Below, piece by piece: positions 2,029 to 63,066 of a stretch of 64,000 nt of DNA. A program made the translations under genes and the position numbers. Within the stretch, counting starts at the first letter, position 1, and every line of letters starts with the position of its first letter. The notes under the pieces are model-generated. The model ran no database searches. It saw only the letters and a list, made by a program, of their open reading frames with translations, and was not told where the DNA came from. The DNA lies in NCBI GenBank assembly GCA_963920765.1, contig OY987245.1:17438727-17502726 (forward strand), in the 5' to 3' direction. Source of the stretch: Ulota crispa. Its lineage: Eukaryota; Streptophyta; Bryopsida; Orthotrichales; Orthotrichaceae.

Positions 2029-2965
2029 TTAACCCCTAATGCACAATTGTCCCTTTAGGGAACAAATGGGATTTTGGGCATGTACCTATGGCTAAACTAC
2101 TTTGTGTGATTTTTTGAAACTTTTATTGAAGATGGGGAATTGAAAGATATGTGTGGGCATCTAATTTTTCCTTCATTCCGACATTTACTGAAGAAGTTAT
2201 GCATGAATTTATGAAAATCAAGGGAGGCCAGGCAACCAAAAACTTTTTTAAAAATAACATTTTTTAAAAACAAAAATCTGAAATTCATTCTTTAGATTTA
2301 TACATATGTGAGGAGCTTTGAATCATTCAATTTTGATTTATGAGTGAGAAGTTTTAGTTTACGAGCATGCACGGGATTTCCATACCTCCATTCCTTTTGC
2401 CTTTGGTGCATTACTTTTTTGAGCTCTTTGTGAATTTGATTTTTGACTTCTTTTTTTTCCAAGTTTTAGTAGACTAAGATTCCTTGGTTTTCACCATTTG
2501 GATCAAAAGAATTCATATGTCTCAATTTTACATAAATCCTCCAATTTGGCCTAGTGTATATGCAAATTTCATGTCCTTACGGCATTGCAAGATTTTACAA
2601 AGTATGATCCACACCTCTATTTCATTTGGAAAATCTCCCACACTCACCTAACTTGGTCTTCTACACAGAAAAAATAAACCTCAACTTTGCTTAGAGCAAT
2701 TTTTTGATTTAGGGGCAATTAAAGGCTTCTGAAATTTTTGGGCAGCAGGGAAAAAACTTTTTTTTCACTTAAGATGTCAATATCTCACTCCTCTACATCC
2801 TAAATGAGATGATTTTTTCCACAAGTACCTCCCATAGTCTAAGACAAGATCTTACGGTTGGATTTCCAAAAATAATTGTTTTTCCTACCTTTCTATTCAT
2901 TCCCCCAAAAGTGGCAGTTTTCAGTAACTTTTGCTGAAAAAAGGGCTTGGTCCTTCAGGGGTTAA
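2029..2965. mobile_element. TTAA-flanked MITE, subfamily A (937 bp), left palindrome arm
   Basis: It starts TTAACCCCTAATGCACAATT and ends GGTCCTTCAGGGGTTAA. TTAA is present at both outer ends. The interior matches 26047-26977, 39047-39977 and 44844-46702. The 63-aa reading frame on the minus strand at 2097-2288 recurs in several copies but has no coding character. The length equals the inverted copy at 7305-8241. Confidence 0.85.
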
Positions 2966-3186
2966 GCAAATTATATCCATAAAAGACCTACATTTTTATT
3001 GTCATGGGCAATAATTGGTGCAATGATTTTGTAGACCATGTACAATACATTCAAGCATCTTTCCTCAATTTTACAAAAGTCTATCAATTTCTTCTTAATG
3101 ATTCAACATGACTTTAGCTGCCATAGTAAGAAATGCACTTTGTTTTAGAAGAATCATTTTGTAGATCATGTAGAGTACATTCAAAC

Positions 3187-3756
3187 ATCTTACTTGATTA
3201 TACATAAGTTTAATTATTTTATTTATTTATAAGATTCAATAGCCTAGTCTTGCCTAAAGACCACATCCATATTCCTCTAAAAGCAGAAACATTTATTGAG
3301 ATAAATTCTAATATTCCAAGTAGCATATTTATTCAACATACATAACACTTGTTCCCATATTAGAGATTTGAAATAACTATTAGAAAGTCAAATTTAAATG
3401 TTCTCAACATTGCATTTTCTGGAGAAAATTGAGGGTATACTTAAGGGTGCAAAGGACTGGCCACATTGAGGGGCAAGTAGAATCGAAATTGCCCTTTTTT
3501 GAGGGTATTCAAGAGCCGTATCCCTCACTCTCTTAACTCCTAATACGTGTTGACCTTTGCCTTCTACTAACATTTGAACATTGTACTTGACCTCAAGAAT
3601 TTGAGTTCCAAATGTGCAAAGCAAGAACCTGATTTGGCCAGTCCTTTGCACCCTTAAGTATACCCCTCAATTTTCTCCAGAAAATGCAATGTTGAGAACA
3701 TTTAAATTTGACTTTCTAATAGTTATTTCAAATCTCTAATATGGGAACAAGTGTTA
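3187..3756. repeat. Direct duplicate of 6362-6928 (assembly overlap)
   Basis: These 570 bp match 6362-6928 (567 bp) in the same orientation. The only differences I find are three one-base homopolymer length changes (T3/T2 near 3205, T6/T5 near 3495, C4/C3 near 3663). It spans the palindrome loop and the start of the right arm. The match stops at gtgtta (3751-3756), where fungal sequence begins. This is the pattern expected when one locus is assembled twice around a wrong join. Confidence 0.85.
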
Positions 3757-6161
3757 CCATCGCATCATCGAATAGTGCATCACCTCCGAGCTCCTTTACA
3801 ACGATCCCAACAATCCGCTTCGGCCAACGCAGATGCGTGCCCAATATCGTCCCGTCGATCTTCCTGAAATGTTCTCCGCCCATTCTACCGTCCCATACAG
3901 CGATCTTGCTTTCGACGAGTCTACATGGGCAGGATGGTCAGGCCACTCGTGTGCAGCAAGAGGCATCATGAGCATCTGGATGCTGATGAAGTAGGAGAGT
4001 AAGAGTTGAACGATCAAGTTGTTGGGGTCAAGGAATGACTTGAAAGAATCGTGGCATAATTCGTACCTGTCTGCATTAGTCTGTGTGTTCGGGCAGTGTG
4101 GTACGGAAGGGAAGCTCACCAGACAGCGTAGACACCGACGAATTGCATGTAGCCTGATTGCGGCGATGCGAGTAGTGAAGAGATCACATCAGTGAGTGCG
4201 CCATGGAAGTCGGAGTCGACGTCATTCTCTAGGTATGGCTGGATGTCCTCGAGTGCTGCTATGCCTTCCTCGAGTAGTGTATGGTTTACCGGTGGCAGAC
4301 TTGCAAGTCTCGGTGCCATGACTTTGAAATGCCAATCAGGTTGGAGGTTGAATGCTGTTGGCACGTCTTCTCTGCGGATCTTCTCCGTTGTCAATGCACA
4401 GCCACGAACCATCGTGATGAAGTCTTCTAACCCATCACCCATGTATGAAGCTTGGAAAGTAAGAGCGTAGCAGGCTGCCAGCATAGCGTCCGACTCGCCG
4501 TAATGCTGTGCCTTTTGACTCAAAGCTTTGTTGAGTCCGGCGATCGCTTGACCTCGATGGGTCAACGACTCCTTCCGATAGTCGATGCCTGTCAAGCGGC
4601 TGAGATGAGACGCGCCGAGCGACAGGATTGCGTGCATGAGGTACTCCTGATGCTCGGCGAATTGAGGGATCTCGTTGACCCAGACATGGTCGTTGCCGAC
4701 TGGCAAGTGAGGGTAGGCCGTGGTCAGGAAATGATGGAAGAACTTCATGTCTAGCATCGTGAACAGCGCCGTTCCAGGACTGTTCCCTGTTGGCACTCGC
4801 TTTGCCAAGGGAAGAGGATCACTTCGCTTGCGAGGCTGCTCAGCGGTCGGATAGACGCAGCTGAGGCCTTTCATCAAGCAGTTTCCACACTTTGGCTTCT
4901 GCTCTCCGCACTTGATCTTGCGTCCTTTGCACGTGTAGCAACCAGCTCGGCTCTTCTTATGACTCCTACGGGTCAGATTAGGAGCGAGCGTACGTGCCTG
5001 TCGTTGGTCTGTACTTCTGCTGTCGTCGACATGCATTGTCGAGAATAGCAGGTCGTCCTTGGAGAATCCACAAGATGATGTACTAGACGCGTCGAAGTTT
5101 GAAGTGCAGACATCGGACAAACCAAAGACATCTGACTCGCTGATATTGGGTGTGAAGATTTGGTCGTGCACATACATCGTTGGCCACTATTACCACAATG
5201 TCTTTGTGATGTCAAGAATCCTTCGAGATTCTGTATATAATGTCGTTATGGCGTCGAAGCAGTGGCTGTCTACCGGTAAGACCAGAATGTCTCCGGCAGT
5301 GTTGATCTCAGTCAATGTCGTGAGGCTTGGTTGGATCAGGTGTTGTATATTTGCAAGGCTATGGCGATGTGGAAGTAAAGTGCATCTGATAAGTTTGTTG
5401 ATACTCCTGGCTCGGGAAATGTCGTCAATAGTATAGGAGAGCCGTACCCGACGGGAACGGCTAGAATGTTAGCCTTGTTAGACATAGATACCGGAATGAG
5501 TCAAGAGCAAGGCAGACGTCGCTTGTCCCATGTGGCTTGCAGGGGTCCTCGAGGAACATTCGCGGAATACCACTGCCTAGAGCATAGCCTCACAGGAGCA
5601 ACGGCTTCCAATGGTCCTTTTGGTCTTGCCTGTACGCCCTTGCATTTAGTCATTCACGATCACCAACGCCGAGAGGGACCATTGCAGCTCTTGTCACCTG
5701 AAGCTGTGACTACTTTCGCGCAATAGTAGACGAAACAAAAATAGCCAGGTGATTCAAGGGTCACGGCTCGTAAGTTGGGGCTGGTGGGCGCGCATCTCTA
5801 ACCATTTGGGACGTTCGTGGGTTGGCCAGGCTCGCATATCGTCCAATGGAGCGTCGAGGGAGATTGATGCAGGGCAGATATTAATGCCTCAGGACACCTG
5901 ACCTGTGCCCAGACACTGTCCGTGTGCCCGGGGTTGTAGTGTACCAACTGCCATGCCGGAAGAAGTTGGAGATGAAGTTGCAGTGATAGAAAGAAGACAA
6001 ACAACGTTGTTTTTGTCGTTGATTCAAGTTGTCCTCGTGATGTCGAAGATGATGCGGTGCCTGGAAGTCAAGCCTGGTCTCACCCAGTGCAGTGCCCCGG
6101 AGAGCCTCACCCGTTGTTGTGGAACGCCAATGCAAGGCATTGATGATGACTTCGCAAACTC
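3757..6161. other. Foreign, fungus-like segment (probable contaminant or chimera)
   Basis: Base composition changes sharply at 3757 to roughly balanced GC with CpG-rich words, unlike the AT-rich flanks. It carries a fungal Zn2Cys6 gene. It ends at the N gap starting at 6162. Outside the gene, 5178-6161 has no reading frame I recognise; it is probably the promoter and upstream region of the fungal gene. Confidence 0.85.
3796..5177 (-). CDS. Fungal Zn2Cys6 transcription factor, UPC2-like layout
   Basis: Two exons on the minus strand, 5177-4120 and 4066-3796, separated by a 53-bp intron (donor GTGAGC at 4119, acceptor ACAG ending at 4067). Splicing is phase 2 and restores a tryptophan codon, giving 442 residues plus stop. 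Residues about 80-107 form a textbook binuclear zinc cluster, CYTCKGRKIKC then CGNC and a last Cys (C-x2-C-x6-C-x6-C-x2-C-x6-C). A basic stretch precedes it (RRSHKKSRAG). The remainder resembles the fungal-specific regulatory region of sterol-uptake-control-type factors, with helices such as YLMHAILSLGASHLSRL and, after the intron, LLLSYFISIQMLMMPLAAHEW. Such proteins are nuclear activators found in fungi, not plants; the exact target pathway cannot be read from sequence. Without splicing the first exon would stop at TGA 4116-4118. Confidence 0.88.
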
Positions 6162-7304: not shown

Positions 7305-8241
7305 TTAACCCCTGAAGGACCAAGCCCTTTTTTCAGCAAAAGTTACTGAAAACTGCCACTTTTGGGGGAATGAATAGAAAGGTAGGAAAAACAATTATTT
7401 TTGGAAATCCAACCGTAAGATCTTGTCTTAGACTATGGGAGGTACTTGTGGAAAAAATCATCTCATTTAGGATGTAGAGGAGTGAGATATTGACATCTTA
7501 AGTGAAAAAAAAGTTTTTTCCCTGCTGCCCAAAAATTTCAGAAGCCTTTAATTGCCCCTAAATCAAAAAATTGCTCTAAGCAAAGTTGAGGTTTATTTTT
7601 TCTGTGTAGAAGACCAAGTTAGGTGAGTGTGGGAGATTTTCCAAATGAAATAGAGGTGTGGATCATACTTTGTAAAATCTTGCAATGCCGTAAGGACATG
7701 AAATTTGCATATACACTAGGCCAAATTGGAGGATTTATGTAAAATTGAGACATATGAATTCTTTTGATCCAAATGGTGAAAACCAAGGAATCTTAGTCTA
7801 CTAAAACTTGGAAAAAAAAGAAGTCAAAAATCAAATTCACAAAGAGCTCAAAAAAGTAATGCACCAAAGGCAAAAGGAATGGAGGTATGGAAATCCCGTG
7901 CATGCTCGTAAACTAAAACTTCTCACTCATAAATCAAAATTGAATGATTCAAAGCTCCTCACATATGTATAAATCTAAAGAATGAATTTCAGATTTTTGT
8001 TTTTAAAAAATGTTATTTTTAAAAAAGTTTTTGGTTGCCTGGCCTCCCTTGATTTTCATAAATTCATGCATAACTTCTTCAGTAAATGTCGGAATGAAGG
8101 AAAAATTAGATGCCCACACATATCTTTCAATTCCCCATCTTCAATAAAAGTTTCAAAAAATCACACAAAGTAGTTTAGCCATAGGTACATGCCCAAAATC
8201 CCATTTGTTCCCTAAAGGGACAATTGTGCATTAGGGGTTAA
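7305..8241. mobile_element. TTAA-flanked MITE, subfamily A (937 bp), right palindrome arm
   Basis: This is the inverted copy of 2029-2965, starting TTAACCCCTGAAGGACC and ending TTAGGGGTTAA. It has the same length and nearly the same sequence. The MITE therefore inserted before the arm was duplicated, or the arms have been homogenised by gene conversion. Confidence 0.85.
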
Positions 8242-8572
8242 TGTTCATTGATTTCAATATGCTAAACAACCATCACAGATTTTTTCATCCACCTTAGACC
8301 GCCATTTTTCATCCATATTAATTTTCATTCATTGGCTCCAATGAATATCATTGATTTATTTCATCCACATCCTCCCCTCTTTCAAATGATTATTGCACTT
8401 TAGAGACAAATTGTGTTGCTTTAGGGAATTTTTTGTTGTTTCAAAACATCCAATCTCAAATTACGGAAATTTTTATTTCTCCTCTTGCACTCTAAAAAGT
8501 CTCTTTTATTGCTCACCACTCATTGCTCACCACTCATTGCTGACCACTCACTGCTCACGATCTAGTGTCATT

Positions 8573-9567
8573 GCTTAACTTGGTCAATGGCACTCTTTGG
8601 TTGAAAATGTAGAGGGTTTGTGATGGGCCAAACATATTGTTATAGGATATTCAAAACTAGTGAAAAAGGTAAAAATTGAGTAGAATGCACTTGTATTGTG
8701 ATGTCAAATAGCATGTAAATCAATTACGTATATGATAATGCATGGGTTTTCTATCTCGCGATATTTGAAATTTTCTATAAACAATGTAAGTTCAAAATTC
8801 TCTATTATAAGGCATTTGGGTGTTAAGCATTAGATGTTTATCAACCACCCAAATTCTGAAATTCACAACAGGCAAATTCAAGAGGGGAGGGAGAGAAGAA
8901 GAGATAGAGAAATGAAAATTCAATTTAAAAATCACCAAAAATTAAGAGAAACATGATACAACGTGCCTACGAGATATACTTGTTTACTTAATAAATGACA
9001 CCGGTTTGTTATAGGAATTACTTGGAACTTCTCCCTTTTTCATGAAAGGAGGCTAATTTTCCCACAACGGTCACTCGTTTCGTTTTGAGAAGTTCAATAT
9101 TTTTATGCCTCTTTATTTTGGTTCTAACTCAATAGCTTACAATTTAGTCACCTTTCATCCAAAATCTTCAAGCGACACATACAACAATGATGAAAAAAAC
9201 ATTGTAGAGGCACAATTGGATAGTGAGCATGATGGAGCTGACTCAGTTTGTGTCGATCCAGTCCTAATTAGTCTCTTGACTCTCTTCTTCCTTCAACAAA
9301 ATAATTGATTAACACAATATTCATGAACTTGGGAACTGAGACTTGACTTTGAGACTCTTTAGTTTTTATGTCCTCAAAATATTTTTGACTAAATCATTTT
9401 CCAAGAACATAAAATCTAAAAGTTTTAGAATTGAGTGTTTTCCCAAATTAATGAAAACTGTATTTTATCCTTCCTTTTTGGTATAGAAGCCTAATAGGAA
9501 CTTCATTCAAACTTATTCCGAAGATAGAGAATGAAAAACAAAGGGATTTTTGATTATACAACAATTT
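8573..9567. other. AT-rich intergenic DNA, nothing recognised
   Basis: Only short frames occur. The 67-codon frame at 9105-9308 has no recognised domain. A GA-rich run lies at 8882-8915. No supported feature. Confidence 0.5.
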
Positions 9568-10244
9568 CTAACCCCAAAACAACTCTAGAATTTCTTGAGC
9601 TTCTAGGAATTTTCCCTAATTTGAACAAAAACCTAACATTTTGAACAAAAACCTAACATTTTGATAAAGTTGTATCAATTCTTTTTGAACTGTAACCATA
9701 TAAAATCAAACTAGACATGTTAGAGATCACAATTAGAGAAGAAAGCACAACTATACCTCTTATGATTGAAGGATTATAATGTTTGATCATGAGGGTGTTA
9801 AAATTGTGAAAGTGATTTGAAGTTTTTCAATCTTCTTTTCACTAGTCAAACTTTAAAAATTGGTCACCAAAAAAATATGAGGATCAAAGGCCCTAACATG
9901 CATAACCTCAATCAATTTATGATTTCTCAAAATCTACTCTACAATTTTTTGAATGAATTCTAATGTGATTTTTTCTCAAAGATCTAGTGTACTTGAGGTT
10001 CATTCCCAAGAGCCCTCAACCCAACATAAAGTCAAGATTGCAATGGACACCCGTGCACAAAATCTTGAATAGAAAAATTGTAATCAATTGTTTGCAAAAA
10101 TCAAGTTGTTGAAGCTAAAACTAAACTTCAAAAAAAACCTTTAAAAAAAATTAAAACAATAAAAAGAGTGAGTTGGTAAGGTTCTATTTAACTTCAAAAA
10201 TTAGTTGAGGACACATTATGTCCTCAGGGTCGTTTAGGGGTTAA
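9568..10244. mobile_element. TTAA-type MITE, subfamily B (677 bp)
   Basis: It starts CTAACCCCAAAACAACTCTA (left TTAA mutated to CTAA) and ends GTCGTTTAGGGGTTAA. The interior is homologous to 52291-53421 and 54836-55490. A 22-bp stretch beginning tttgaacaaaaaccta is directly repeated at about 9622-9665. Confidence 0.75.
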
Positions 10245-23070: not shown

Positions 23071-23158
23071 TTATATTGACAAACAAAAGATTTGTGAATG
23101 TAGTGTCCAATAGAAATGGTTTTCTAGTTAATGTTTAAGGACTAATGACATATCTTTT

Positions 23159-23808
23159 GAATATGCATCTTGTAGATCCGAAGCAAAATAGTATGCTTTC
23201 AAAATCACAATTGTAATATGCAGAAGAAAAACACTTTGATGTAATAAAAATTACAAAAAACTAAATCCAAAATGTATTGAGGTAAAGAATATAAGATAGA
23301 GAAAAAACTTGACAGTTTTAACAAGGTTTATTTTCTAACACTGTGTTGATTCCACAAGCTCTAGATTTTTTTTTTATTTTTTTTTAAATTTATTTATTTA
23401 TTTTTATGTTAATGCTGGAGTTAGTTGCAATACACTTAGTGCAATTACAAAATTGACAATATTCATAGAGTCTCATGAGAATTGAATATGCATCTTGTAG
23501 ATCCGAAGCAAAATAGTATGCTTTCAAAATCACAATTGTAATATGCAGAAGAAAAACACTTTGATGTAATAAAAATTACAAAAAACTAAATCCAAAATGT
23601 ATTGAGGTAAAGAATATAAGATAGAGAAAAAACTTGACAATTTTAACAAGGTTTATTTTCTAACACTGTGTTGATTCCACAAGCTCTAGATTTTATTTTT
23701 ATTTTTTTTTAAATTTATTTATTTATTTTTATGTTAATGCTGGAGTTAGTTGCAATACACTTAGTGCAATTACAAAATTGACAATATTCATAGAGTCTCA
23801 TGAGAATT
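23159..23808. repeat. Recent 325-bp tandem duplication
   Basis: Units 23159-23483 and 23484-23808 are almost identical, differing mainly in the T-run near 23367/23690. Both start gaatatgcatcttgtagatc and end with a tagagtctcatgagaatt segment. The near identity suggests either a young duplication or an assembly artefact. Confidence 0.9.
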
Positions 23809-39046: not shown

Positions 39047-39977
39047 TTAACCCCTAAAGGACCAAGCCATTTTTTCTGTGAAAAACACAGAAAACTGCCA
39101 CTTTTGGGGAAGCAAGTACAATGGTAAGAAATATAGTTTTTACAAGAATTTAACCGTAAGATCTTACAACAGATTACAAGAGGTACCCGTGGTAAAAAAT
39201 TCAGCTCAATCTACACAAAAATGAGTGAGATATTTACATTTGAATTGCAGAAAAAAGTTTTTTTTGTTGCTATCCAAAAATTTCAGAAGGCTTTGACCAC
39301 TCTTAGAGCAAAGTAATTACTCTACACAAAGTTGTGGTTTATTTTTTCCATGTAGGAGACCAAACTAGGTATGTGTGGGAAAATTTTCAAATCAATTAGA
39401 ACTATACAACACATGGGAAAAAAATAGTAAGTAAAAAGAAGTAGAGAATGAGTCAAAACACTAAATTGTTAAGAATTTAATTATAAAAATGAAAATGCAA
39501 ATCCCAACAGTTTCAATGTTGTGATAAACAATCTACATCCTTTGGTTTTGTTTTTTTTACTAAAATATTAAAAATTGAGTAAAATAAAGGACTTCAAAGT
39601 TTATTTTAGAGTAGAGAATCTAGAACTGCCCGCAAACAAAAACTCCACATAACTTTCATCTCATCTATCAGAATTGAATGATTCAAAGCTCCCCACGTCT
39701 AAATAAGTCTAAAGAACCTATTTCACATTTTTATTTGAAAAAAATAAAAAAAAATAAAAAAGTTTTTGGCTGCCCGAGGAGCAGCTTTTTCCAAATTTTC
39801 ATGCATAATTTCTTCAATAAATATTGGAATGAAGAAAAAACTACATTCCCATGTAGATCTTTGAATTCCTCATCTTGGATAAAAGTTTCAGAAAATCACG
39901 CAAAGTAGTTTAGCCATAGGTACATGCCCAAAATCCCAATTGTTCCCCTCTGGGGACAATGGTCCTTTAAGGGTTAA
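39047..39977. mobile_element. TTAA-flanked MITE, subfamily A (931 bp), next to a promoter
   Basis: It starts TTAACCCCTAAAGGACCAAG and ends GGTCCTTTAAGGGTTAA, the cleanest terminal repeats in the window. It ends only 146 bp before the ATG of the rhodanese/PpiC gene at 40124, so it may lie in that gene's promoter or 5' UTR. Confidence 0.9.
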
Positions 39978-40123
39978 GGCCCCCACCGTAGGGAGATTCC
40001 GGAAGACTGCGACGCGACGGGGCCACTGCTCACCGTCGCAAGCGCTGCTGCTGCAGGTCCAAGCCCATTCCCAAGCTTTCCCAAACCAGAGCTCGGAGCT
40101 CGTTGCTGCTGCTGCTGACAACC

Positions 40124-43100
40124 ATGGCCAGATCATGGGCCTCGTCGCTGCCCACCACGTCCCGCCTTTTGGCCATCACTTCCTCCTCCGCCGCTTATCT
40201 CCCTCTTCTCTCCCCTTCATTTTCTTTTTCTCCTTCTCCTTCTTATTTATCGTCGTCTTCGCCACGTTCTCCTCTCACATTTCGCTCTATCAGCCCTCCG
40301 TCGCGTGTGCGCATCTCTCCCCTGTTGCAACAGCTACAACGCCGCACCATTTCTCTCTGTAGGAGCCAATTTCCGAACAGGATGTGGATTTCAATTTATT
40401 AGGGTTTTGAATTGTCCGAGCAGGATGTGGATTTCAAATTTCTAGGGTTTTGAATTGTCCGAGCAGGATGTGGATTTCAAATTTCTAGGGTTTTGAATTG
40501 TCCGAGCAGGATGTGGATTTCAATTTATTAGGGTTTTGAACTGTCCGAACAGGATGCGAATTTCAAATTTATTAGGGTTTCGATTGCCCTGTGGGATTAC
40601 GATTGGCGCAACTTTATAAGACCGGAGTTTATTAGTGTGCACCTGAGAAATAAACGGCTATCGCATTTAAGCATTGTTTGGCCGATTGAACGGATTGCGT
40701 TTGCAAATGCAGGTACTGTGAAAGCTGTGGGAATGCCGGACGGTGTAGGAAGCACTAAATTCAAGGAACGAGAGATTTTGGTGCAGCATCTCTTAGTGCC
40801 GGAAGATCAGCTCCAGTTATTGCTTGACCTTCAACGCCAAGTTATGCAAGGTTTTATTTTTTCCTCACCGTTCGTGTCTTCTCTGAATTGAATGTTTGCA
40901 AAATCGTATGTATAGTTGTAGTTGTGTAGCATCGAGGATTGAGATAATTGAGGATAATGTGAGGACTTAGGGTTTAGTGGTGATGGACATGTGAGTGACG
41001 ATGCATTTTTTTAATTTCTGCTCAGATGGAGTGGATTTAAGCGACTTGGCAACTGAGTACTCTATATGCGCTTCTAAGGGCGAAGGAGGAATGTTAGGAT
41101 GGATATCCCTGGGTCGAACTGTAAGTTTCTAACCTCTATTGTTCAAGGAGCTCGAAGTCACTTGTCAAAATCGATTTGGAATATTTGCCTTTGAATATCT
41201 ACTAATACAACAAAACAAAAAAAGAGGTAAAATCCTCTGGCTATCTATGTATCTGTATTATAAGGCTGGTGTATCTGTCTCATGACATAAGTCTCATGAT
41301 GTAATGATATAATGACGTGTCATGTCATAAATTCTCTATTAACATCACAAGTTCTGTCACGCCATAAATTTTCTATTAACATCACAAGTTCTAATAAAGA
41401 GGGGAGAAATGAGAGGAAAGGCACCCAAAAGGGGGTGAAATGTCACAAAGGGAGAGGAAAGGACACCCAAAGGGCGGGTGAAAGTCATTTGGGATTGTGA
41501 AAAGTCATCAGAATTGTGAAATCCTCAAATCTGATATTTTAAAACATTATAAACTCTCTATAGCATTGTGTGTCTTTGCATTCCTCGAATTTTGAAATTC
41601 AAGGAAGGGGGAGGGAGAGGAAAAGGTAGGAAAAGGGCGGGTAAAAACTGACATAGAAAAGTCATGCGCAGCGAAGCGCGTGCAGTATACTCGTTGGTAT
41701 AATATCTTCACTAGATTGTTTATTCGCTATCAACCTCTAAATTGCCTACGCATACAGTAAAGAACCTAGCAAAGAGAAACTTACACACATGAGTGTTTTG
41801 ATTTTTCAGTATTTGAGGGAAGCATGTAGCGGAGTTTTGTATTTTATAAATACTAAGTTACCTTGATTCTATGTAACTGAGATTCCAAATGCATTTTTCT
41901 AGAGCCTTGTAAATGGATGAAAGCAATCTTACTTCTAGGTATCTAGAGGTTAACCACGTTGAGCTAGAGGTTTGGTTGTGTGTTAAGTCATCCAGACCTC
42001 AGAATTGATGTTCTCGAGAGTTGGTTTCTCTGAAGAAACCGTGCTGCTTTATGATTATGTTGCATAACTGAGTCTTTTGAGGCCACTGTAAGTGAACGTG
42101 CTGCAAGTAAAGCCGACAACGTTATTCACCGTAATGACATATCTGCTTGGAGTAAGGTGCCGGAATTTGAAGTGGCGGCCTTTAAAGCTCCTTTGAATAA
42201 GCTGGTTCGCGTCAAGACGAAACATGGTTGGCATCTTCTGCAAGTGCTGTCCGAAAGGTCTGTTGTTCTCTTCCCTGTTTTTTCCCCATCAGCTTTTCTT
42301 TTGACACCAGTTGGTACATTTTTTTGAGTTCAGCAATCAAATACATTGAATTGCGTGTTTTGGTATGAATCTCGGTTACTAGGGTTGGAGTTATTTCCAA
42401 GACTCGAGCATGTCCTCAAGTGGATGTCTATTCTGCAGAGAGGCTAGCTTCTTGCGTGATATAAACGTGGACGAGTTTGGCATAAAAATGGAGGGTCCTG
42501 AGTTTTTGCAAGAAGCACAGCTGTTGGATGTGCGAGAACCTGATGAAATGTAACCTTCCAAACGAATGATCTCGTTTAAGTTTTCTGCTGCAAGTCTATC
42601 TTCGTTATTAAGTTTTATTTTTAACATAACCAAAATTCTTTGGACTTCAGCAACGCCATTGGATTTCTGTCTTTTTTTGTGTCGAGAGTAACAGCTAATT
42701 TCAAACAATGCTGCACTACATTCGTACGAATCTTACTTCAAAACTCTGTTTGCATCAGCGCAACAGCATCAATAGAAGGGTTCAAGGCTTTTCCACTTAG
42801 TCAATTCGGAAAATGGGCACCAACTATTGCAGAAGATCTTGACCCAAACAAGGACACATATGTGCTGGTGAGCTTAGCAATGCCCCTTCGCCTTCTTCTT
42901 TTCTTTTTCCAGGATGACAAATTCTCTACATGGTTTTGGTAGTTCCTAGTGCGTGAGACGGATTTCCTGCAACGTCAATGCTTGGGACTACCTGAGAATT
43001 ACTGATTGTACATTTTTGTTGAACATCATAATAATCATGCATCGGTGTTTCTGGTGCAGTGTCATCATGGCATGCGATCTTTGCAGGCTGCTAATTGGCT

Positions 43101-44843: not shown

Positions 44844-46702
44844 TTAACCCCTAAAGGACCGAGCCATTTTTCAGTGAAAAAGACTGAAAACTGCCACTTT
44901 TGGGGGAATGAGAGGAATGGTATTTTTTTTCAGATTTTTTTGAAATCCAACCATAGGATCTTGCTCTAGACAGCATGAGGTACTTGGGAAAAAAATTTGA
45001 GCTTATTCCAAACTAGTATACAGGCACATGCTTTGCGTGAGTTGGGCATGTATGGGTAATACAACATCCAACTTTACAAAAAACTGATATCTCAATTCAA
45101 TTGGTCTAGATTTCAATCTAGATGTATTGTACAAAAAACAATCTCACAATTGGTCTAGAATCTAACCCTCATACACCGTCATTTTGGTGAGATCAAAAAT
45201 GCCAATGGCATGGCTTCATCACAATGCTACTCTTTAATACTTTGCTAGGAGGTGTTTGGCATTTTATTAAATTTCTAGCACATGGTTGGAAGGCATTTGA
45301 TGTTTTATATTTGGAGCATGGCTTATTGTTTCAACTTCCACCAAAGAGTTCTAGAACATTTTGGAAAATGATATGATTGGAAGACACTTGGTGTTCTATA
45401 TCTTGCGTGTCCTTTGTTGCTTCAACTTACAAAAAAAACTTCTAAAAGGTTCTAGAAAAGAGCACACTCAAGGAAATCCTCCCACTTAGTGGTATAGATA
45501 GATAGATAGTTTTTGGTGTTTCTTCTCCTCTTGAGAAAAGATCAATCAATTTTTATGAAGGAAGCTCAAGGGTTTGTATGAAGGAAGCTCAAGGATTTGA
45601 ATAAGGGAAGCTCAACAACCTTGATGTGAGGTTTCCCAAGGATTGTTGACCTTTCGTAGTTTAAAAGTTCTAGAAGGTTTTAGAGGGTGTGGAGTGAGTG
45701 CCTCCCACTTAGTAGTATAGATGGTTGGAGGGTGTTTGGTGTTCTATATATGGGACATCCTTTACTATTTCAACTTCCACCAAAAAGTTCTACAAAATTT
45801 TGGAATGAACATGGTTGTAGGACACTTGGTGTTCTATTTCTTGGGCGTCCTTTGTTGCTTCAACTTACACCAAAACATTCTAGAAGGTTTTAGAAGAAGG
45901 CGCAGTTAGGGAAATCCTCCCACTTAGTAGTATAGATGACAAGGACTGAGATTTTTACAAATGAAGTGAAGAATTTTTTTTTTTTCATATTGCTTAAAAA
46001 TTTTAGATGTTGTTGACCACTTCTATATCAAAAAATTTGCTCTACGCAAAGTTGAGGTTCTTTTTTCCCATGTAGAAGACCAAGTTAGGTATGTGTGGGA
46101 GAATTTTCAAATCAATTGGAACTATATAGCACATGGGTAAAGTCAATAAGTAAAAAGAAGTAGAGAATGGGTTAAAACACTAAATTGTTAAGAACTTAAT
46201 TATGGAAATAAAAATTTCCAATCCCAATGGTTATAGTGTTGAGATAAACAATCTACATCTTTTTGTTTTGTTTTTGTTCCAAAATATTGAAAATTGAGTA
46301 AAATAAAGGACTTCAAAGTTTATTTTAGAGTAGAGAATCCATAACTGCCCGCAAACAAAAACTCCTTATAACTTTCATCTCATTGATTGAAATTGAATGA
46401 TTCAAAGCTTCTCACCTATAAAAAAATCTGAAGAACCAGTTTCAAATTTTTGTTTTAAAAATATATAATTTTTAAAGAAATTTTTGGGCTGCCCAAGTAG
46501 GTAGCCCTCCCCAAAATTTCAGAAAAACATGCAAAACTTCTTCAATAAATGTCGGAATGAAGAAATTTTTGATGCCCACGTAGATCTTTGAGTTCCTCAT
46601 CTCCCATAAAAGTTTCAGAAAATTACATAAAGTAGTTTACTCATAAATACATGACCAAAACCCAAACGGCCCCCAAAGTGACAACGGTCCTTTAGAGGTT
46701 AA
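44844..46702. mobile_element. TTAA-flanked MITE, subfamily A, carrying nested Helitrons (1859 bp)
   Basis: It starts TTAACCCCTAAAGGACCGAG and ends GGTCCTTTAGAGGTTAA. Subtracting the Helitron cluster 45013-45936 leaves 935 bp, the standard subfamily A length. The Helitrons arrived after this element. Confidence 0.88.
45013..45936 (-). mobile_element. Helitron with three successive 5' ends
   Basis: On the minus strand the 3' terminus is CTAG (45016-45013), next to T, with a gcaaagcatg-type hairpin just before it. The 5' terminus TCTATAC(T/C)ACTAAGTGGGAG occurs three times, at 45936, 45721 and 45498. The last segment (45498-45013, 486 bp) is a full element like 20281-20782. The two upstream segments (about 215 and 223 bp) carry 5' ends but no 3' hairpin. 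The host sequence continues cleanly on both sides. Confidence 0.85.
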
Positions 46703-50477: not shown

Positions 50478-50703
50478 TTAACCCTTAAACGTCCATAGGG
50501 AACCGTATATACACTGTCTGATAATTGTTATTTGCTATCGATAAAAATTTAATTTGGGATCTCAACACTAGAACCACATTAATTTATTTTCCAATTTTTT
50601 TGTTGGTCTCAAATGTAGTAGAGGTGTGGATCCATTCCAAACATAAGAAAAATACCCTGTATTGTACTGGTCGCAGCAACACGCTAGGACGTTTAAGAGT
50701 TAA
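50478..50703. mobile_element. Short TTAA-flanked element (226 bp)
   Basis: It starts TTAACCCTTAAACGTCCATA and ends GCTAGGACGTTTAAGAGTTAA-type, 17-20 bp of terminal repeat. It shares TTAA 50700-50703 with the next element, to which it is homologous internally (caaatgtagtagaggtgtgg and caaatgcaataaaggtgtgg). Confidence 0.8.
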
Positions 50704-50942
50704 CTCTTAAAAGGACCAAGCTACTATAATACATAGTATGTATGCTACTATATAACTAGCATTTGTTACCAACAGAAAGTTTTAATTTGGGATCTAGACT
50801 ACCTCACTAGAACAGCCTTGATCTATATTCTAATTTTTTTATTGATCTCAAATGCAATAAAGGTGTGGATGCACTCCAAATACAAGAAAAATACCCCATA
50901 TTGTACTGGTCGCAAAGGGCTGCTTGGTCCTTTAGGGGTTAA
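50700..50942. mobile_element. Short TTAA-flanked element (243 bp)
   Basis: It starts TTAACTCTTAAAAGGACCAA and ends GCTTGGTCCTTTAGGGGTTAA-type. The ends match subfamily A, but the body is only about 200 bp and matches its tandem neighbour. Confidence 0.8.
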
Positions 50943-50980: not shown

Positions 50981-51236
50981 ACCATATTTGTTAATTTGGG
51001 AAAAATTGTACATTTTGGGACTTTCAAATTTTGAGTTGAAAGTTTGAGAAGGTCTCCTAAAACCCTAGCTCAGCATTTTTTTGTACACATTCACTTGAGA
51101 GGAATTTGCAAGGGAAAAAATCTTAATGGCTCATACTGAATTTGATACCTTTGAATCTAGTTTAAAGTAACTTTTTGGGTTTAAGGTGGAGTACAAAGTG
51201 GGACACCTATTTTTCCCAAATTAACGAATATGATAT
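50981..51236. mobile_element. MITE family C (256 bp), empty TTAA site
   Basis: It begins accatatttgttaatttggg and ends cccaaattaacgaatatgat. At gggtttaaggtggagtacaa (51177-51196) it carries the single TTAA that is occupied in 37218-38935. Confidence 0.78.
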
Positions 51237-52290
51237 TTGCTACAAAAATTGTGAGTAGCATAATGCTAAAATTGAGTATAATTTTTTCCTAACACGTTTA
51301 GTCAAGGATTTTTTTGGGTTTAACTTGACTTGGTCAAGCAACACACACCCTAGAATGCAAGCAAGAAATATGGATAGAACCTTCCATGGATGTTCCATAC
51401 ATGAAATTAGCTAAAATTAATAATCTCATCCAAATTTAGGCATATTACATTTAATCTTTGAGATTGATATGGTAATTATATACATATGTACATTGCTTGA
51501 ATAAAATCTTTTGCATTTTTTGTTGCCATTATAGTTGTGAACATAAAGACAAATATTGCACATTGGTGTCATATTGCATAGTGTCAATCTTGCCAACAAA
51601 AAGGACTCTTAACAATAGTTTTTTAAGCAATGTTTATACAAGCTAAGGATCTCATGGACAAGCAATCTCTTGTTTGTGTCATTGACTAATTACTCAAGCT
51701 TTGCCCTTGTTCCAAGTGGCTTAATGTGGGAATGCCCTTGTGTGAGGCCCTTACCCTATATTTTTGCCTAATTTTTAGTATTATGGTAGCCAATGTCAAA
51801 AGTGATAAGACCGTGTCAAAATGAAGTAAGATCGTGGAAAAAATTAGACCTTGAAAAGATTAGCTGCATTTAGAAGTGTTTTGAGCCACTTAAGCTAATG
51901 TGGAAGCACCCATAGCCAACAACGCCCCATGTCCAACAAATAGGGTGCCCTATTTCCAATCTCAACAAGGATAGGGTTTTGGAATACGTTCTTATGTCCT
52001 TTTCAAGGTTGGACCACTTAAGTCACGACACATGTCCCAAAATGAAGTAGGAAGTAATGAGCGGAAAGTAGTTTGGCTATCATTGGAATTGCATGAATCT
52101 AGAGGTTGGGAATAGGTTCAAAGCACTTTTTGACTCCTAAAATTCACAGTAATTTCAGTTTTGCAAATAAAATTTAGCAATCTTAGTATTTCTTGTCTTC
52201 CCCTACAGGCCTACACATGTGTTTGTTACCTCAAACTCTTTGTAGGTTGTTGCAGAATCACAAAAGTTATTGGGTATGGGTGCTTCCACC
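51237..52290. other. Intergenic DNA, nothing recognised
   Basis: No gene, array or element ends that I can support. Confidence 0.45.
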
Positions 52291-52710
52291 TTAACCCCAA
52301 AACAACCCTAGAAATTCTTGAGCTTTTAGGAATTTGCTCTAATTTGAACAAAAAGCCAACATTTTGATAAGTTTTATCAATTCTTTTTGAACTATAACCG
52401 TATAAAATCAAACCAAACATGTTAGAGATCTCATTAGAAAAGAAAACACAACAATATCTCTTATGGATTGAAAGATTATAATGTTTGATCATGAGGGTGT
52501 TAAAATTGTGAAAGTGATTTGAAGTCTTTCAATCTTCTTTTCACATGTCAAATTTGAAAAATTTGGTCACCAAAAAAATATGAGGTTAAAGGGCCTAATA
52601 TGCATAATCCTAATCAATTTATGACTTCTCAAAATCTACTCCACAATTTTTTTAAATGAATTTCTAATGTGATTTTTTCTTAAAGATCCAATGTATTTGA
52701 GGCTCACTCC

Positions 52711-53145
52711 AGTGTTTTTTTTTTGAGCAATTTAAGGCCCAATTGGCTCAAAAAAAATGGTGAGCTTCAAGCCTATAGAAAAAAATGGGGGATTTTTTTT
52801 CAAAAAATGCCAAATTGCAATAATGAAAATTACTTTGTAGCTTACGCTTACATAGAATTCTCATGAAACGGAAATTTGATGCCATCGTTCTAAAATTGCT
52901 TGAGTATTGTCTAATTCAATTCCATGCAATAATTAAGAAATGCCAATGGTTAATTGAATATTTTCAAAAAAAGGCCAATGAATACTTTTACCTACAAAAA
53001 AAATCCCATGATGTTGCAAAAATCCATGCATAGGGGCCACCTTCAACTCCAACTAAAATAGGGATGAAGCCCACAAGCTACAAATCATTTTCAAATAACG
53101 CCACATATATAGGCATTGGTCAAAAAACCAAAAAGAAAACCTTGA
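52711..53145. mobile_element. 435-bp insertion with perfect 8-bp duplication, class unclear
   Basis: CTCACTCC at 52703-52710 recurs at 53146-53153, and the sister element at about 9990 passes through this point uninterrupted. The insert begins agtgttttttttttgagcaa and ends gaaaaccttga, with no clear terminal repeats. It contains aaaaaatggtgagcttcaag and many A/T runs. Non-autonomous; possibly hAT-derived or a retroposon. Confidence 0.75.
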
Positions 53146-53274
53146 CTCACTCCCAAGAGCCCTCAACGCTACATAAAGTCAAGATTACAATGGACACCTG
53201 TGCACAAAATCTTGAATAGAAAAATCAGAATCAATCATGTGCAAAATCAAATTGTTGAAGCTAATACTAAACTT

Positions 53275-53280
<6 letters not shown>

Positions 53281-53330
<50 letters not shown>
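53281..53330. repeat. (TA)25 microsatellite
   Basis: An uninterrupted TA run of 50 bp inside the TTAA element. Confidence 0.98.
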
Positions 53331-53331
<1 letters not shown>

Positions 53332-53417
53332 CACTAAAAATAGTAATTTGGTAAGGTTTTATTTAACTTCAAAAATTGGTTGAGGACACATATTCTGTCC
53401 TCAGGGTTGTTTTGGGG

Positions 53418-53829
53418 TTAACCCTTGAGCGCCCCAGCGACCACTATGTGGTCGTTTAGTTTTGAAAAATGTCCATGTTTGACTCTCATCCTCTTCTTAA
53501 TGGTAAAGTCAAAGGACTTACTTTTTCATGTACCTCTAGGCATGTATCTACTACTACTCAAAAAAATTCAAGCTATTTGACTCTACTTAAGTAATACTTT
53601 TATTGGACTAAGTACACAAGGGTATGGATTTGAATGAATATGGCCTAGACGCTCAGGCCCCGGATCCCAAATATAATTTTCACTTTTAACACTAGTGGCT
53701 AAAACACTGCTAAAAAGCTAAAATTTTCAAATTTAACACGGGAAAGCTTACATTTTTTAAGCTACAAGAAAATTTTGTTAGCAACCCTGCTAATTTTAGC
53801 CAGTTTAGAGAACGCTGCTCGGGGGTTAA
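53418..53829. mobile_element. TTAA-flanked element, subfamily C (412 bp)
   Basis: It starts TTAACCCTTGAGCGCCCCAG and ends AACGCTGCTCGGGGGTTAA. It shares TTAA 53418-53421 with the preceding element. Its right half matches 34540-34680. The hairpin gaccactatgtggtc lies near its left end. Confidence 0.82.
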
Positions 53830-54186: not shown

Positions 54187-54839
54187 TTAACCCCGAAATG
54201 CCCAAGTATCACATTTTGGTGCCGACAAAATTTTGCAGTTTAATAAAATCTAATGTAGTTGCTATTTTTAGTATTTAGTAGTTTAGAATTTTTTTTTTTG
54301 AAGTTTAGTTTTAGCATCAAAAATCTGAGTTTGAAAATTATTAATTTTGACATTTTAATTCAAGATTTTGTGCAAAGGTGTCCATTGCAATCTTGATTTT
54401 TTTGGTGTTGAAAGCTCATGAAAATGAGCCACAAATACACTAGATCTTGGAGAAAAAATCACACTAGAAATTCATTTTGAAAAATTGTAGAATTTTTTTT
54501 GAAAATTTGTAAAGTGATTGGAGTTATGTATGTTATGCCCTTTAACCTCATATTTTTTTGGTGATCAACATTTTAGATTTGACATGTGAAAAGAGGATTC
54601 AAAGACTTGAAGTCATTTTTGCAATTTTAACACCCTCTTGATCAAACATTATAATCTTTCAATCCATAAGTGGTATTGTTGTTTTTTCTTTTCCTATCTA
54701 ATATCTAACATATCTAGCTTGAATTTGTATGGTTACAATTTAAACAAATTTGATACAACTTATCAAAATGTTGGCTTTTTGTTCAATTTAGAGCAAATTC
54801 CTAGAAGCTCAAAAAAGGCCTTGGGCATTTAGGGGTTAA
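54187..54839. mobile_element. TTAA-flanked element, subfamily B (653 bp)
   Basis: It starts TTAACCCCGAAATGCCCAAG and ends CCTTGGGCATTTAGGGGTTAA-type. It shares TTAA 54836-54839 with the next element. The internal frame MIKHYNLSIHK recurs in sister copies (52492, 54638, 55290) but shows no coding constraint. Confidence 0.88.
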
Positions 54840-55490
54840 CCCCAAAGCGTCATTGGGGACAGAAACTGTCCTTGACCAATTTTTGAAGTTAAATAGAACC
54901 CAATAAAATTACTCTTTTTAATAGTTCATATTTTTGAAAAGTTATTTCTGAAGCTTAGCTTTAGATTCAACAATCTGATTTTGCAAATGATTGATTATGA
55001 TTTTCCTATTCAAGATTTAGTGCACGGGTGTTCATTGCAGTCTTGACTTTATATAGTGTTGAGGGCTCTTGGTAATGAGCCTCAAATACACTAGATCTTT
55101 AAGAAAAAACCACATTAGAAATTCATTTAAAAAAATTGTGGAGTAGATTTTGAGAAGTCATAAATTGATTAGGATTATGCATATTAGGCCCTTTAACCTC
55201 ATATTTTTTTGGTGACCAAATTTTTCAAATTTGACATGTGAAAAGAAGATTGAAAGACTTCAAATCACTTTCACAATTTTAACACCCTCATGATCAAACA
55301 TTATAATCTTTCAATCCATAAGAGATATTGTTGTGTTTTCATTTCTAATGAGATCTCTAACATGTCTAGTTTGATTTTATACGGTTACAGTTCAAAAAGA
55401 ATTGATAAAACTTATCAAAATGTTGGCTTTTTGTTCAAATTAGAGCAAATTCCTAGAAGCCCCATAAATGCAATGTCACTTTGGGGTTAA
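54836..55490. mobile_element. TTAA-flanked element, subfamily B (655 bp)
   Basis: It starts TTAACCCCAAAGCGTCATTG and ends ATGTCACTTTGGGGTTAA. It lies head to tail with the preceding element in the same internal orientation, with a single TTAA between them. Confidence 0.88.
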
Positions 55491-56701
55491 GGGTTTGGGG
55501 TACCTCAAGGTCTCAGAAAATTCAAGAAAAAAATATGTAGGAATAGCCTTTCAACAAGTTATCATTAACTTCATTTTTGTGTAATAAAGTATTATAGAAT
55601 ATTTTATATTAAAGGGTAAAGTTGCAGCTTGTATGGTCCCTAAAAGTAACCCTAGACTAACCTCGAAATTGTTAGGATGTGTTCCTATAATGGCACTTAA
55701 CAGTCCAAATCCCAACACTCCCAAAGTAGCTTAGCAATTGACATGTGGCAAAATTTGCTTGTGCAAGCAGCCTTCACTGCTCCATTTTGGTTTCAAGAGT
55801 GGTCAATGAACACCTCAAAAATAAGATGCAAAATTGAGTGCTGCTCCAGAATGGGTATGTCTACCTTACTTTCATAATTGCATAAATACCCTTCTCCACA
55901 ATTATCAAAAATACATATCACCTACTTTTGGACATGACTTGTGCTTTGACCAGTCTTTCAATTTCCTTGTAGGTGACATCCATCTTTGATAATTGTGGAG
56001 AAGGATATTTTTGCAATTATGAAAGTATGTTGAAGATTTTTGTGCAACTTCTAAAAAACAAGGGGCATTTGTACAAATATTGCTAATTCTAAGGGTATTC
56101 ATCAAATTTTATTATTATCTCATGTATTACCTCATGTAGCTCTTATAACACTCCTAAATGGGGGATAATTCTAAAAGTTGAAAATCCTTTCGTTTACCAT
56201 ACGTGTCTGTGGGGCCAAGATGGAAGAGCAGAGCTTTAATTTTTCACATCTCTCAGCAAATGTAAGTATTTAGAAATTTACTAGTAGTATACTTAATTTG
56301 GGAATTTTGAATTCATGTTTAGATTCAGAGATCTTGCTTCAATCATCAATTGTTAAAGAAGACAAAATTGATCAATTCCAAAACAGGGAGCCAATTATGA
56401 TTTCTTTGTTTGTGAAAAAGTTGAGATTTTTCATCTTGATAGGGTCAAGAGAGAACTAGCACTTAATGTGTTGCTAGCTAGTTGAAACTGTAAAAGAATT
56501 TGTTGAAAATAACAACTATTGGATAAACATTTGGGCAATTTTTCAAATAAACGAATTCTACTGTAAATGTAGGCAATTTATAGGTGACAACCGCTGCATT
56601 CCCAATGAAAAAATCAGCTAAAACTGGGACATGCCGGAATTAACTCAACTTTATCCTTGAACGCTGTCACAAACATGTATGTGCAGTACACCAAGCCCAT
56701 G
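55491..56701. other. Intergenic DNA with a family E relic
   Basis: Around 55870-56100, words such as tttcataattgcataaatac and ggtattcatcaaattttatt match the ends and interior of the fold-backs at 33934 and 58227, but the copy is degraded. No gene seen. Confidence 0.5.
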
Positions 56702-56704
56702 TAA

Positions 56705-56863
56705 GGGCCTCCTTTCATGTGAAGTTGGGGTCGGGGAAACTAAAAAAAGTCGATTGATTATCAGTTGGATTGGGGCTTTAGAAAATAAAGCTCCCATCTT
56801 GGCCGATAATCGGTCAGCTTATTTTAGTTTCCCCAGCTCCCGACTTCACATAGAAGGAGGCCC
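56705..56863. mobile_element. Tourist-like MITE (159 bp), TAA duplication
   Basis: Flanked by TAA at 56702-56704 and 56864-56866. The ends are GGGCCTCCTTTCATGTGAAG and GACTTCACATAGAAGGAGGCCC-type, and ggggaaactaaaa pairs with ttttagtttcccc inside. The TAA duplication and GGGCC start fit PIF/Harbinger (Tourist) MITEs, whose transposase class survives as a fossil at 21228-21812. Confidence 0.85.
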
Positions 56864-57215
56864 TAAGTTGTAGTCCTAGAATCAAGATTGGAAATTATAT
56901 TTTGTCAAATTTAGTCACATAAGCACATATATGAAATTGCTTGAGAGCATCTTGGCCGGTCCGGGCTCTTTCAAAGTTTTTTGTAAGTTTGCCAACCCTC
57001 AAGTCCCTTGATCTCCACCCATGCTCTTCAAAAAAGTGGCCTTGCACTCCAACACGCCCCACAAATAATCAATTGACCACTTACAAAACCACTTATTAAG
57101 GAAAGTAGAGGATAAAACCCCATATTCAATCAATACGGGATTGCAGGTTGTATATGGAGTGTACAAGAGATTGCATTGGTCCAAACACACTCCATATATA
57201 CCATGCAACTTCATA

Positions 57216-57518
57216 CATTATAAAGGATTTGGACCCAAGAATGGGCCCCTTCCCCCAAAACTATGGGAACTTTGGGAACACTTACACATAGGCAATTTGT
57301 AGCAGTATGATATGGCATTAGGGCGACCAAGTTATACATTATTATTTAATATATTTTTTGGAAAAAATAACTTTCTTTTTACTTTATTTATTTATATTTT
57401 TGATTTTGTTTTATTTTATTTTTTTAAATCTTCTTTTTGACAACTAGCAGCGGTTGGTTCCTAGCATTGGGAACATCCAAACTCACAGCCCTTTCTTGGG
57501 TCCAAATCCCTTCTAATG
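57216..57518. mobile_element. MITE family J (303 bp)
   Basis: The inverted ends are CATTATAAAGGATTTGGACC and GGTCCAAATCCCTTCTAATG. The left third is similar to 61515-61788 (cccttcccccaaaactatgg; ggcattagggcgaccaagtt), and the middle is T-rich low complexity. No clear duplication. Confidence 0.78.
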
Positions 57519-57839
57519 ATGATAGAATATGGGGTTATAAAGTTCACTAAGCTCAAGATGAATAGTGTCATGAAGGGCCCTTGCTAGACACTATAGGACA
57601 AAGTGTCTTGAGAGGGTTTTGAGAGGGGTCTCAACACTTTTCATCCACTTTGAGGGTGTGTGAGCCACTGATGGAGATACCCTGATGCCAAGGTCACAAG
57701 CCATAACATCTAATTTGGAATGGATGTAGAAGCAACTTGTAATTTGAGAAGATTGAGAGGAATCCATTTTGCTCAAGGTTTCATGTGTTGTCTTACTAAA
57801 GATAAACTCTTCACCATTCAAGGATAGACTGTTGGAGCA

Positions 57840-60967: not shown

Positions 60968-61001
<34 letters not shown>
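60968..61001. repeat. (AT)17 microsatellite
   Basis: An uninterrupted AT run. Confidence 0.95.
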
Positions 61002-61005
<4 letters not shown>

Positions 61006-61273: not shown

Positions 61274-61513
61274 TTAGCCCTTGAGCGCCCCACAGGCCAA
61301 AATGTGGCCTCTCCATATTTGACAATTTGTTGCCTTTGATCGTTATAATCTTTTAATCCATGCAACGAAAACTTATCAAATTTTTCATATATATGCTGAT
61401 CCTTAGCCTCGTGCAAGATCAACGACTAGATGTTATTTTTGAACTTGTGATGCCAAATTGTTTACAATGAGATCTAACACTGCACAAATTTGTATTGGGT
61501 GCTCAAGGGTTAA
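61274..61513. mobile_element. TTAA-type element, subfamily C (240 bp)
   Basis: It starts TTAGCCCTTGAGCGCCCCAC (left TTAA changed to TTAG) and ends TTGGGTGCTCAAGGGTTAA. The bases just before it, acatttaggggtta, look like the right end of another TTAA element sharing the same site, whose left end I could not locate. A family J MITE starts one base after its right TTAA. Confidence 0.75.
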
Positions 61514-61514
61514 C

Positions 61515-61788
61515 CATTACAAGGGATTTGGACCCCCAAAGAGGCCCCTTCCCCCAGATCTATGGGAACTTTGGGAACACCTTCCACATGGGCAATTTGT
61601 CGTAAACTATGCTGGCATTAGGGCGACCATGTCATCTTGTATTATTTTTTTATTTTTTAAAAAGAAATCTTATTTTTTTCTAAAACTTTTTATTTTTATT
61701 TATTTTTAATTAATTTTTCTAATGATCAGCCCCAACATTGAAAACAGAAAAACTCACAGCCCCTTTGGGGTCCAAATCCCTTATAATG
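61515..61788. mobile_element. MITE family J (274 bp)
   Basis: The inverted ends are CATTACAAGGGATTTGGACC and GGTCCAAATCCCTTATAATG. Homologous to 57216-57518. Confidence 0.8.
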
Positions 61789-62412
61789 TGAAACTAACTA
61801 ACAATTAAAATTAGAAATAAAATGTCTTTCGCTTTCTAGAAGTACGGTCTCCCATTGCCGTTGTTTTGAGGATTTCAGCATAAATGAAATAGAACATTGA
61901 AAGGAGTGGATTTTTTTTTTTCTCTAGCAGCAACAACTTCAAACCAAAACTTCTCTCAAAATAACAATAATAACACGAGTTTTGGACTACGAAGATATGT
62001 TTTGGAAAATCTTAAAATCGAAGTGAGAAAAACATATATTTGAGGTACTTGGAGGAATTTGCTTTCATATTCAATCAAACCCAAAATTTGGTCATAAGAT
62101 TTATCATCTAATATTAGATTGATTATTGCAGACCACATGCAAAAGAAACCTTCTCACTATACTTTACAAACGTATTATGGTGCTTTTTAAGGTGACCGAT
62201 TAGTACAGTGGCAAACATACGCAACTTAATTAGAGCCTTGTGTTTTTTTGACTTTGTAGATATACTTTGATTCTTATACAATGCTTTAAATAGAGATTTA
62301 GCCCAAAAATATAGGAAAATGAAAACCTCTTTTCGTCTCACCGCCAAGCAAATTTGTGGTTGGAACATTTGTTTTTAGCCATTCTTTTATTTGTTGTATT
62401 GCGGTTTTCTTC
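61789..62412. other. AT-rich intergenic DNA, nothing recognised
   Basis: Only short frames and no element ends. Confidence 0.45.
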
Positions 62413-63066
62413 TTAACCCCTAAATGCCCAAGGCCTTGTTGAACTTCTTGGCATTTTAGGAAAGTGAACAATCAACCAACCTTTTCATAAATCTCATTAA
62501 GTTTTTTTAAACTGTAGTCGTATAAATTTAAACTTGACATGTAAGAGATCACATGGAAAAAGAAAACTCAACAATATTACTTATAATTTGAAAGATTATA
62601 ACATTTGAACACAAGGGTGTTGAAATTGCAAAAGGTGACTTGAAGTTTTCTAGTCCTCATTTCACATGTCAAATTTAAAAAATTGGTCATCAAAAAAATA
62701 TAAATTTTAAGGCCATTACAAATTTAATTTTAGTCAATTTACAACTTCCAAGATCTACTCCCGTAGTTTTTTTTAAATGGATTGCTAATGCAGATTTTTC
62801 TCCATGCTCTAGTGTATTTGAGGCTCATTTTCAAGATCTTCCAACACTAGAAAACTTAAGATTGCAGTGGACGCCCTTGTACAAAATCTTGAATAAAAAA
62901 ATCATCAATATTCATTTTTTGAATTGAATTTTTGATATTGAAAATAGACTTCAAAACAAACTTGTATTTAAAAGAAAATACCAATAATAATAATTTGATA
63001 AGATTTTATTCATCTTCAAAGTTTTGCAAACACCCAAATTGGGTGCCTTGGGCATTTAAGGGTTAA
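62413..63066. mobile_element. TTAA-flanked element, subfamily B (654 bp)
   Basis: It starts TTAACCCCTAAATGCCCAAG and ends CCTTGGGCATTTAAGGGTTAA-type, 20 bp of near-perfect terminal inverted repeat. The interior is homologous to 54187-54839. Confidence 0.9.

Follow-up and report, generated by a model that had tools for sequence, protein, structure and literature searches.

A large, diverse and mostly decayed population of piggyBac transposases and TTAA-bounded MITEs in the moss Ulota crispa

Among the described systems closest to the elements reported here are piggyBac of the moth Trichoplusia ni, a widely used genome-engineering transposon, and piggyBat, whose host is a bat. To our knowledge, piggyBac is rare in land plants, and flowering plants seem to have very little of it. 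The available part of a survey of animal piggyBacs gives CCCTT as the most conserved end and mentions, with no detail given, isolation of piggyBac from insects, fungi and plants (PMC10813416). In the accessible sections of plant papers, PiggyBac is named among the plant DNA superfamilies (PMC10794571), the moth element is used as a tool in plants (PMC10905368), and repeat tables list 1,230 PiggyBac elements (122,417 bp, 0.00%) in the fern Ceratopteris (PMC6890710) and 1 element of 75 bp in the grass Stipa (PMC8319324). No report of piggyBac in a moss was among the literature matches listed, which covered titles and the starts of abstracts, most subscription papers being outside their scope. 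For piggyBac combined with Physcomitrium the term in the moss paper was "piggybacking", and "piggybac" is absent from the main text of a liverwort paper (PMC9985172). That this is the first report of piggyBac in a moss is not established; the superfamily is already known, and the surprise is its abundance in a land plant.

The window, meaning the whole 64,000-nucleotide stretch that was analysed, lies on contig C4 of a genome copy of 274.8 Mb in 157 contigs, which was searched throughout. The genome note for Ulota crispa, in its available part, gives 275.00 Mb and 408 scaffolds for assembly cbUloCris4.1 (PMC11803377), and the copy analysed seems to lack the small scaffolds. The first-pass annotation, made from the letters of the window, was right in taking it for plant DNA, the host being a moss. 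On contig C157 the rbcL reading frame is open and is closely followed on its downstream side by trnR-CCG, a bryophyte-type arrangement. Matches to 5.8S rRNA are present in the genome (G000) at 14 places on many contigs with very unequal scores, 13 of the 14 being above the family cut-off, and Rfam gave no match in the window at gathering scores.

The window contains far more TTAACC-like end pairs with matching inverted repeats than its eight Markov shuffles: 19 vs 0-3 at 10 or more matches out of 14, 11 vs 0-2 at 11 or more, and 8 vs 0 in all eight shuffles at 12 or more. The elements with TTAACCC and GGGTTAA ends that had been noticed by eye are thus real. The following list was built from the scored end pairs, single ends and self-repeats of the window (strand is given where assigned; fractions are matches in the terminal repeat).

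2029-2965, minus strand: MITE of the ~930-bp family, A-end at 2965 and B-end at 2029, TTAA on both sides; inverted-duplication twin of 7305-8241
7305-8241, plus strand: second arm of the MITE copy 2029-2965, in the inverted repeat; scored end pair
9568-10244: 677-bp element with ends CCCCAAAACAACT and CCCCTAAACGACC, 5' edge CTAA, 3' edge TTAA, 11/14; 86.5% identical to 54836-55439
26047-26954, plus strand: ~930-bp family MITE with an intact A-end and no recognisable terminus on the 3' side; 77.6% identical to 39039-39936
28213-28871: 659-bp element, both of its ends being of B type, TTAA on both sides, 10/14
35694-37221: 1528-bp element of the CCCTTGAGCGCCC subfamily, TTAA on both sides, 12/14
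37422-38878: 1457-bp element, TTAA on both sides, 11/14; has paralogous empty sites with one TTAA
38337-38878: possible 542-bp element, weak, nested in 37422-38878, starting at an abutting TTAA, 10/14; outside the 16
39047-39977, plus strand: 931-bp MITE of the ~930-bp family, TTAA on both sides, 13/14
44844-46702, plus strand: 1859-bp MITE, belongs to the ~930-bp family and carries a repeat inserted internally, 13/14
50478-50942: 465-bp element, TTAA on both sides, 11/14
52291-53421: 1131-bp element of the CCCCAAAACAACCC subfamily, 14/14
53418-53829: 412-bp CCCTTGAGCG-type element, 5' TTAA in common with 52291-53421; paired by eye, weaker
54187-54839: 653-bp element of the CCCC(T/G)AAATGCCCAAG subfamily, 13/14
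54836-55490: 655-bp element, TTAA in common with 54187-54839, 12/14
61274-61513: 240-bp element of the CCCTTGAGC subfamily, edges TTAG and TTAA, 12/14
62413-63066: 654-bp element of the CCCCTAAATGCCCAAGG subfamily, 13/14

The 16 listed TTAACCC...GGGTTAA elements measure 240-1859 bp, and their union of 14,095 bp occupies 22.0% of the window, which corrects the earlier figure of about a quarter. The two arms of an inverted repeat (1726-3466/6805-8544, 99.5%) hold 2029-2965 and 7305-8241, which are not independent because they are one copy in two arms, so that 15 independent elements stand where about 19 had been counted. TTAA is present at both outer edges of 13 of the 16, the exceptions being 9568 (CTAA at 5'), 61274 (TTAG at 5') and 26047 (3' end not recognisable). 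At 38337, 53418 and 54836, neighbouring elements abut at one shared TTAA. Pairs 39150-40976, 55193-57538, 61274-63066 and 38337-39977 were discarded as weak or overlapping. The window has eight closed ORFs of at least 120 aa, none of them transposase-like by eye (the one scanned with Pfam is a fungal-type regulator), and the window elements are therefore taken as non-autonomous. A tandem duplication of 328 bp with 99.4% identity is also found in the window, at 23157-23809. Here it is proposed that the window elements are, with very high probability, non-autonomous piggyBac transposons (MITEs), moved by the transposase of longer elements of the same genome.

The target of these elements is TTAA. 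The terminal 13-mer CCCCTAAAGGACC occurs 9,597 times in the genome, vs 3 times for the reversed control, and the bases preceding it are TTAA in 8,154 cases (85%) and CTAA in 139 (1.4%); because of these proportions the targeting is not of TA only, and the genome-wide flank tabulation suggested with the first description gave no TA-only pattern. A degenerate end pattern, TTAACCCYTNANNGNCC, has 31,318 matches in the genome (9 for the reversed control), which for this one pattern is a density of 0.114 per kb; the places listed are the first of the 31,318 and are all on C1. Terminal repeats start with CCC in the window elements, in the degenerate genome ends, in transposase loci T2, T3 and T7 and at the 3' end of T4, the 5' end of which reads CTCC. 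The first 30 CCCCTAAAGGACC loci included 6 anchors with no partner in reach, and the other 24 gave 17 distinct paired elements, with flanks TTAA/TTAA in 13, TTAT/TTAT in one (L049, a 4-bp duplication) and ATAA/TTAA in one (L053); the two that have no target duplication are 99.9% identical to each other. The comparison with empty sites covered 39 candidate pairs, several of which were one element twice, and was informative for three elements, the remaining matches being self, neighbour or partial. Empty paralogs of 37422-38878 with a single TTAA are found at window 51105-51238 (85.8%), at L068 (82.8%) and at window 27453-27595 (68%, gapped), while the empty paralogs of L047 and L075 align with no gap at the target, where the bases have diverged from TTAA. 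The flanks of the paired elements and the single-TTAA empty paralogs bear out the TTAA duplication that had been claimed.

A Tc1/mariner-like family with ACCC ends, having TA as its target and a strong preference for TTAA, is one alternative. TTAA includes TA and therefore a TA duplication with this preference gives the identical sequence at TTAA sites, where both models predict one sequence; the one-sided edges CTAA/TTAA (9568) and ATAA/TTAA (L053) fit a TA duplication, and point mutation fits them too. However, a TA duplication free of the TTAA constraint is not what the 9,597 ends display, with their 85% of TTAA vs 1.4% of CTAA, L049 has TTAT on both sides, and piggyBac transposases lie inside elements with such ends (T3/T10 and S25/S26, described below). 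On the flank counts and the transposase link this explanation was rejected as very improbable.

The genome encodes the corresponding transposases. The piggyBac profile DDE_Tnp_1_7 (PF13843), a check named in the first-pass annotation, matches at least 120 stretches of the genome with a best E of 1.3e-73, a count that comes from the 116 candidates scored out of 528 and in which a single locus sometimes takes up two rows; in 14 control genomes the profile had 0 matches. Ten of the 120 stretches have no stop and 110 have at least one. Locus L076 has an open frame matching PF13843 with E 8e-60. By strict pattern, catalytic motif 1 is present in 10, motif 2 in 10 and motif 3 in 12 of 20 loci, and all three DDD motifs in one, L019, which has a stop ahead of its cysteine motif. 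In 13 of the 20 loci a C-terminal cysteine motif lies 177-197 nt past the domain, in a different frame in 3 of the 13, by a loose pattern that has no shuffle control and gives stray matches elsewhere in three loci. Several old transposase lineages are suggested by the sequences of the 20 domains, because their median pairwise identity is 35% (minimum 27%, maximum 81%). A divergent piggyBac-like gene, L077 (C1:1178200-1184800, at 1.18 Mb), has two stop-free matched pieces, perhaps with introns, and might be a candidate domesticated gene. Just downstream of the T7 transposase domain there is a long CATA-type tetranucleotide tract (L035 and L033 joined, about 8373-9045).

The ends of the transposase-bearing elements were inspected at 11 loci read over at least 5 kb. 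Both ends were recognised in five of them (T2, T3, T7, T10 and, with a poor 5' end, T4) and the 3' end only in S25, S26 and L076, L077 being ambiguous; at L034 (5.0 kb) and T19 (8.6 kb) no MITE-type ends were found. T3 (C3) and T10 (C10) are 90.5% identical over 5,029 columns, both boundaries being at most one base from TTAA edges, past which there is no alignment; the 5' edge of T10 reads TTCA, and T2, with 5,102 bp, is similar to both in ends and length. On their 3' side, downstream of the domain, S25 and S26 carry sequence that matches the A-half of MITE 2029-2965, over 530 bp in S25 (C5, joined 3815-4348) and 440 bp in S26 (C9, joined 3943-4381), with 74% identity and ending at the TTAACCCC terminus, at TTAA. 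The two transposases have diverged to 62% identity, and the A-half is at an equal place and orientation downstream of both; the B-half had no match within the stretches read, which cover the 3' side. Both ends of MITE 39047-39977 match the ends of T7 (C7), which is flanked by the two MITE ends over 52-60 bp each, with scores of 20-38, where 300 letter shuffles reached at most 12-15 (five MITEs). MITE ends are so dense that chance may put one of them close to a gene, and the 5' end of T7, the span of which is nested, might come from a different element there. Longer elements that combine MITE-like ends with a piggyBac transposase, anticipated from the window, were thus found by their 3' side at S25 and S26 and by both ends at T7. 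Together with the TTAA specificity and the PF13843 genes, the ends common to MITEs and transposase loci support the piggyBac interpretation. A TTAA-bounded palindrome (L036 and L029 joined, 3330-4055; 728 columns, 95.9% self-inverse) consists of two MITE B-halves and is a fold-back form of the ~930-bp family.

Kolobok and Sola3 also duplicate TTAA, and one of these superfamilies might have made the MITEs, with the piggyBac genes as unrelated neighbours. The density of the ends, even for one pattern, makes proximity to a gene by chance possible, but chance would have to place 440-530 bp of A-half, contiguous with its terminus, in the same position and orientation at the diverged S25 and S26, and the T3/T10 boundaries are at TTAA edges; a different TTAA superfamily is accordingly considered highly unlikely.

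An origin of transposases and MITEs from a contaminant in the assembly, to which a GC-rich stretch of fungal appearance, next to a gap of N in the window, might point, has the least to recommend it and is close to negligible in probability, since transposase matches are on all the large moss scaffolds (C1-C11), MITEs are throughout the window on C4, and CTAA-variant ends are on C1-C6 among the matches listed. The stretch itself (3757-6161) has a GC content of 0.52 at 4001-6000 vs 0.31-0.36 in neighbouring 2-kb bins, includes an ORF (4116-5177, minus strand) with fungal Zn2Cys6 and Fungal_trans_2 domain matches, and adjoins a gap of 200 N between the arms of the 99.5% inverted repeat; it is probably a fungal contaminant or a misjoin, and possibly a transfer. 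Among viral contigs, five pattern matches and no confirmed relative were obtained.

In the piggyBac reading favoured here, a transposase with a DDD catalytic domain and a C-terminal cysteine-rich finger, encoded by longer resident elements, would recognise the termini common to these elements and the MITEs, cut the elements out, and insert them at TTAA with duplication of the tetranucleotide. The ~930-bp MITE would have arisen by internal deletion from an element that bore a transposase: its A-half is the 3' terminal part of the S25 and S26 elements, and its B-end matches the 5' end of a different one, T7.

The piggyBac and MITE population of Ulota crispa is large, diverse and mostly decayed. 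The window has 14 matches to TTAACCCYTNANNGNCC, of which the duplicated copy accounts for two, vs 7.3 predicted by the genome mean, and scaling its 22% by this ratio puts the MITE share of the genome at roughly a tenth, a figure extrapolated from one window selected for its elements. Two 2-kb samples picked by position had one 98-bp stretch matching window elements and are too small for an estimate of genome share. For 17 sampled MITEs, the best match spanning 400 columns or more has 70%-92% identity in 14 and 99.9% in the duplicated pair, and L067 has no such match. As judged from sequence, piggyBac activity appears to be old and largely finished because of these MITE identities and the mostly broken transposases, and most copies would now be dead. 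That many distinct, long-resident piggyBac lineages made tens of thousands of MITEs, about a tenth of the moss genome, is held with slightly better than even confidence. If this is true, piggyBac has contributed heavily to building some land-plant genomes and is not an animal speciality. The moss offers a plant system for the natural history of piggyBac, its silencing, target choice and possible domestication, and makes testable the time and source of its acquisition by mosses, its reach among bryophytes and its scarcity in flowering plants. Its elements can also serve as seed sequences for repeat annotation in moss genomes.

Like piggyBac of Trichoplusia ni (PDB 6x67/6x68), the moss elements have the transposase domain (the open frame of L076 matches 6x67 with E 4.1e-20, and piggyBat with 5.8e-17), a TTAA target, CCC-starting ends and a C-terminal cysteine-rich domain. 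Unlike it, they have a moss host, stops in 110 of the 120 matched stretches and a large MITE population, and the spans of T2, T3, T4 and T7 are 5.0-8.0 kb (T7 including nested insertions) vs ~2,472 bp for the moth element in the available part of the survey (PMC10813416). The alignment of piggyBat (PDB 9c0f) with the 334-aa domain of L019 covers residues 3-334 of the latter, with E 1.2e-21; piggyBat has no single close counterpart in the moss because half of the pairs among the 20 moss domains have 35% identity or less. As in the animal piggyBacs of that survey, so far as its available text describes them, the TTAA duplication comes with rare CTAA, TTAG, GTAA and other variants and the ends start with CCC (PMC10813416); unlike them, the moss has both CCCCT and CCCTT ends and long A and B subterminal parts in its MITEs. 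In the fern and the grass PiggyBac is a trace in automatic annotation, whereas Ulota crispa has 31,318 ends and at least 120 transposase-domain stretches.
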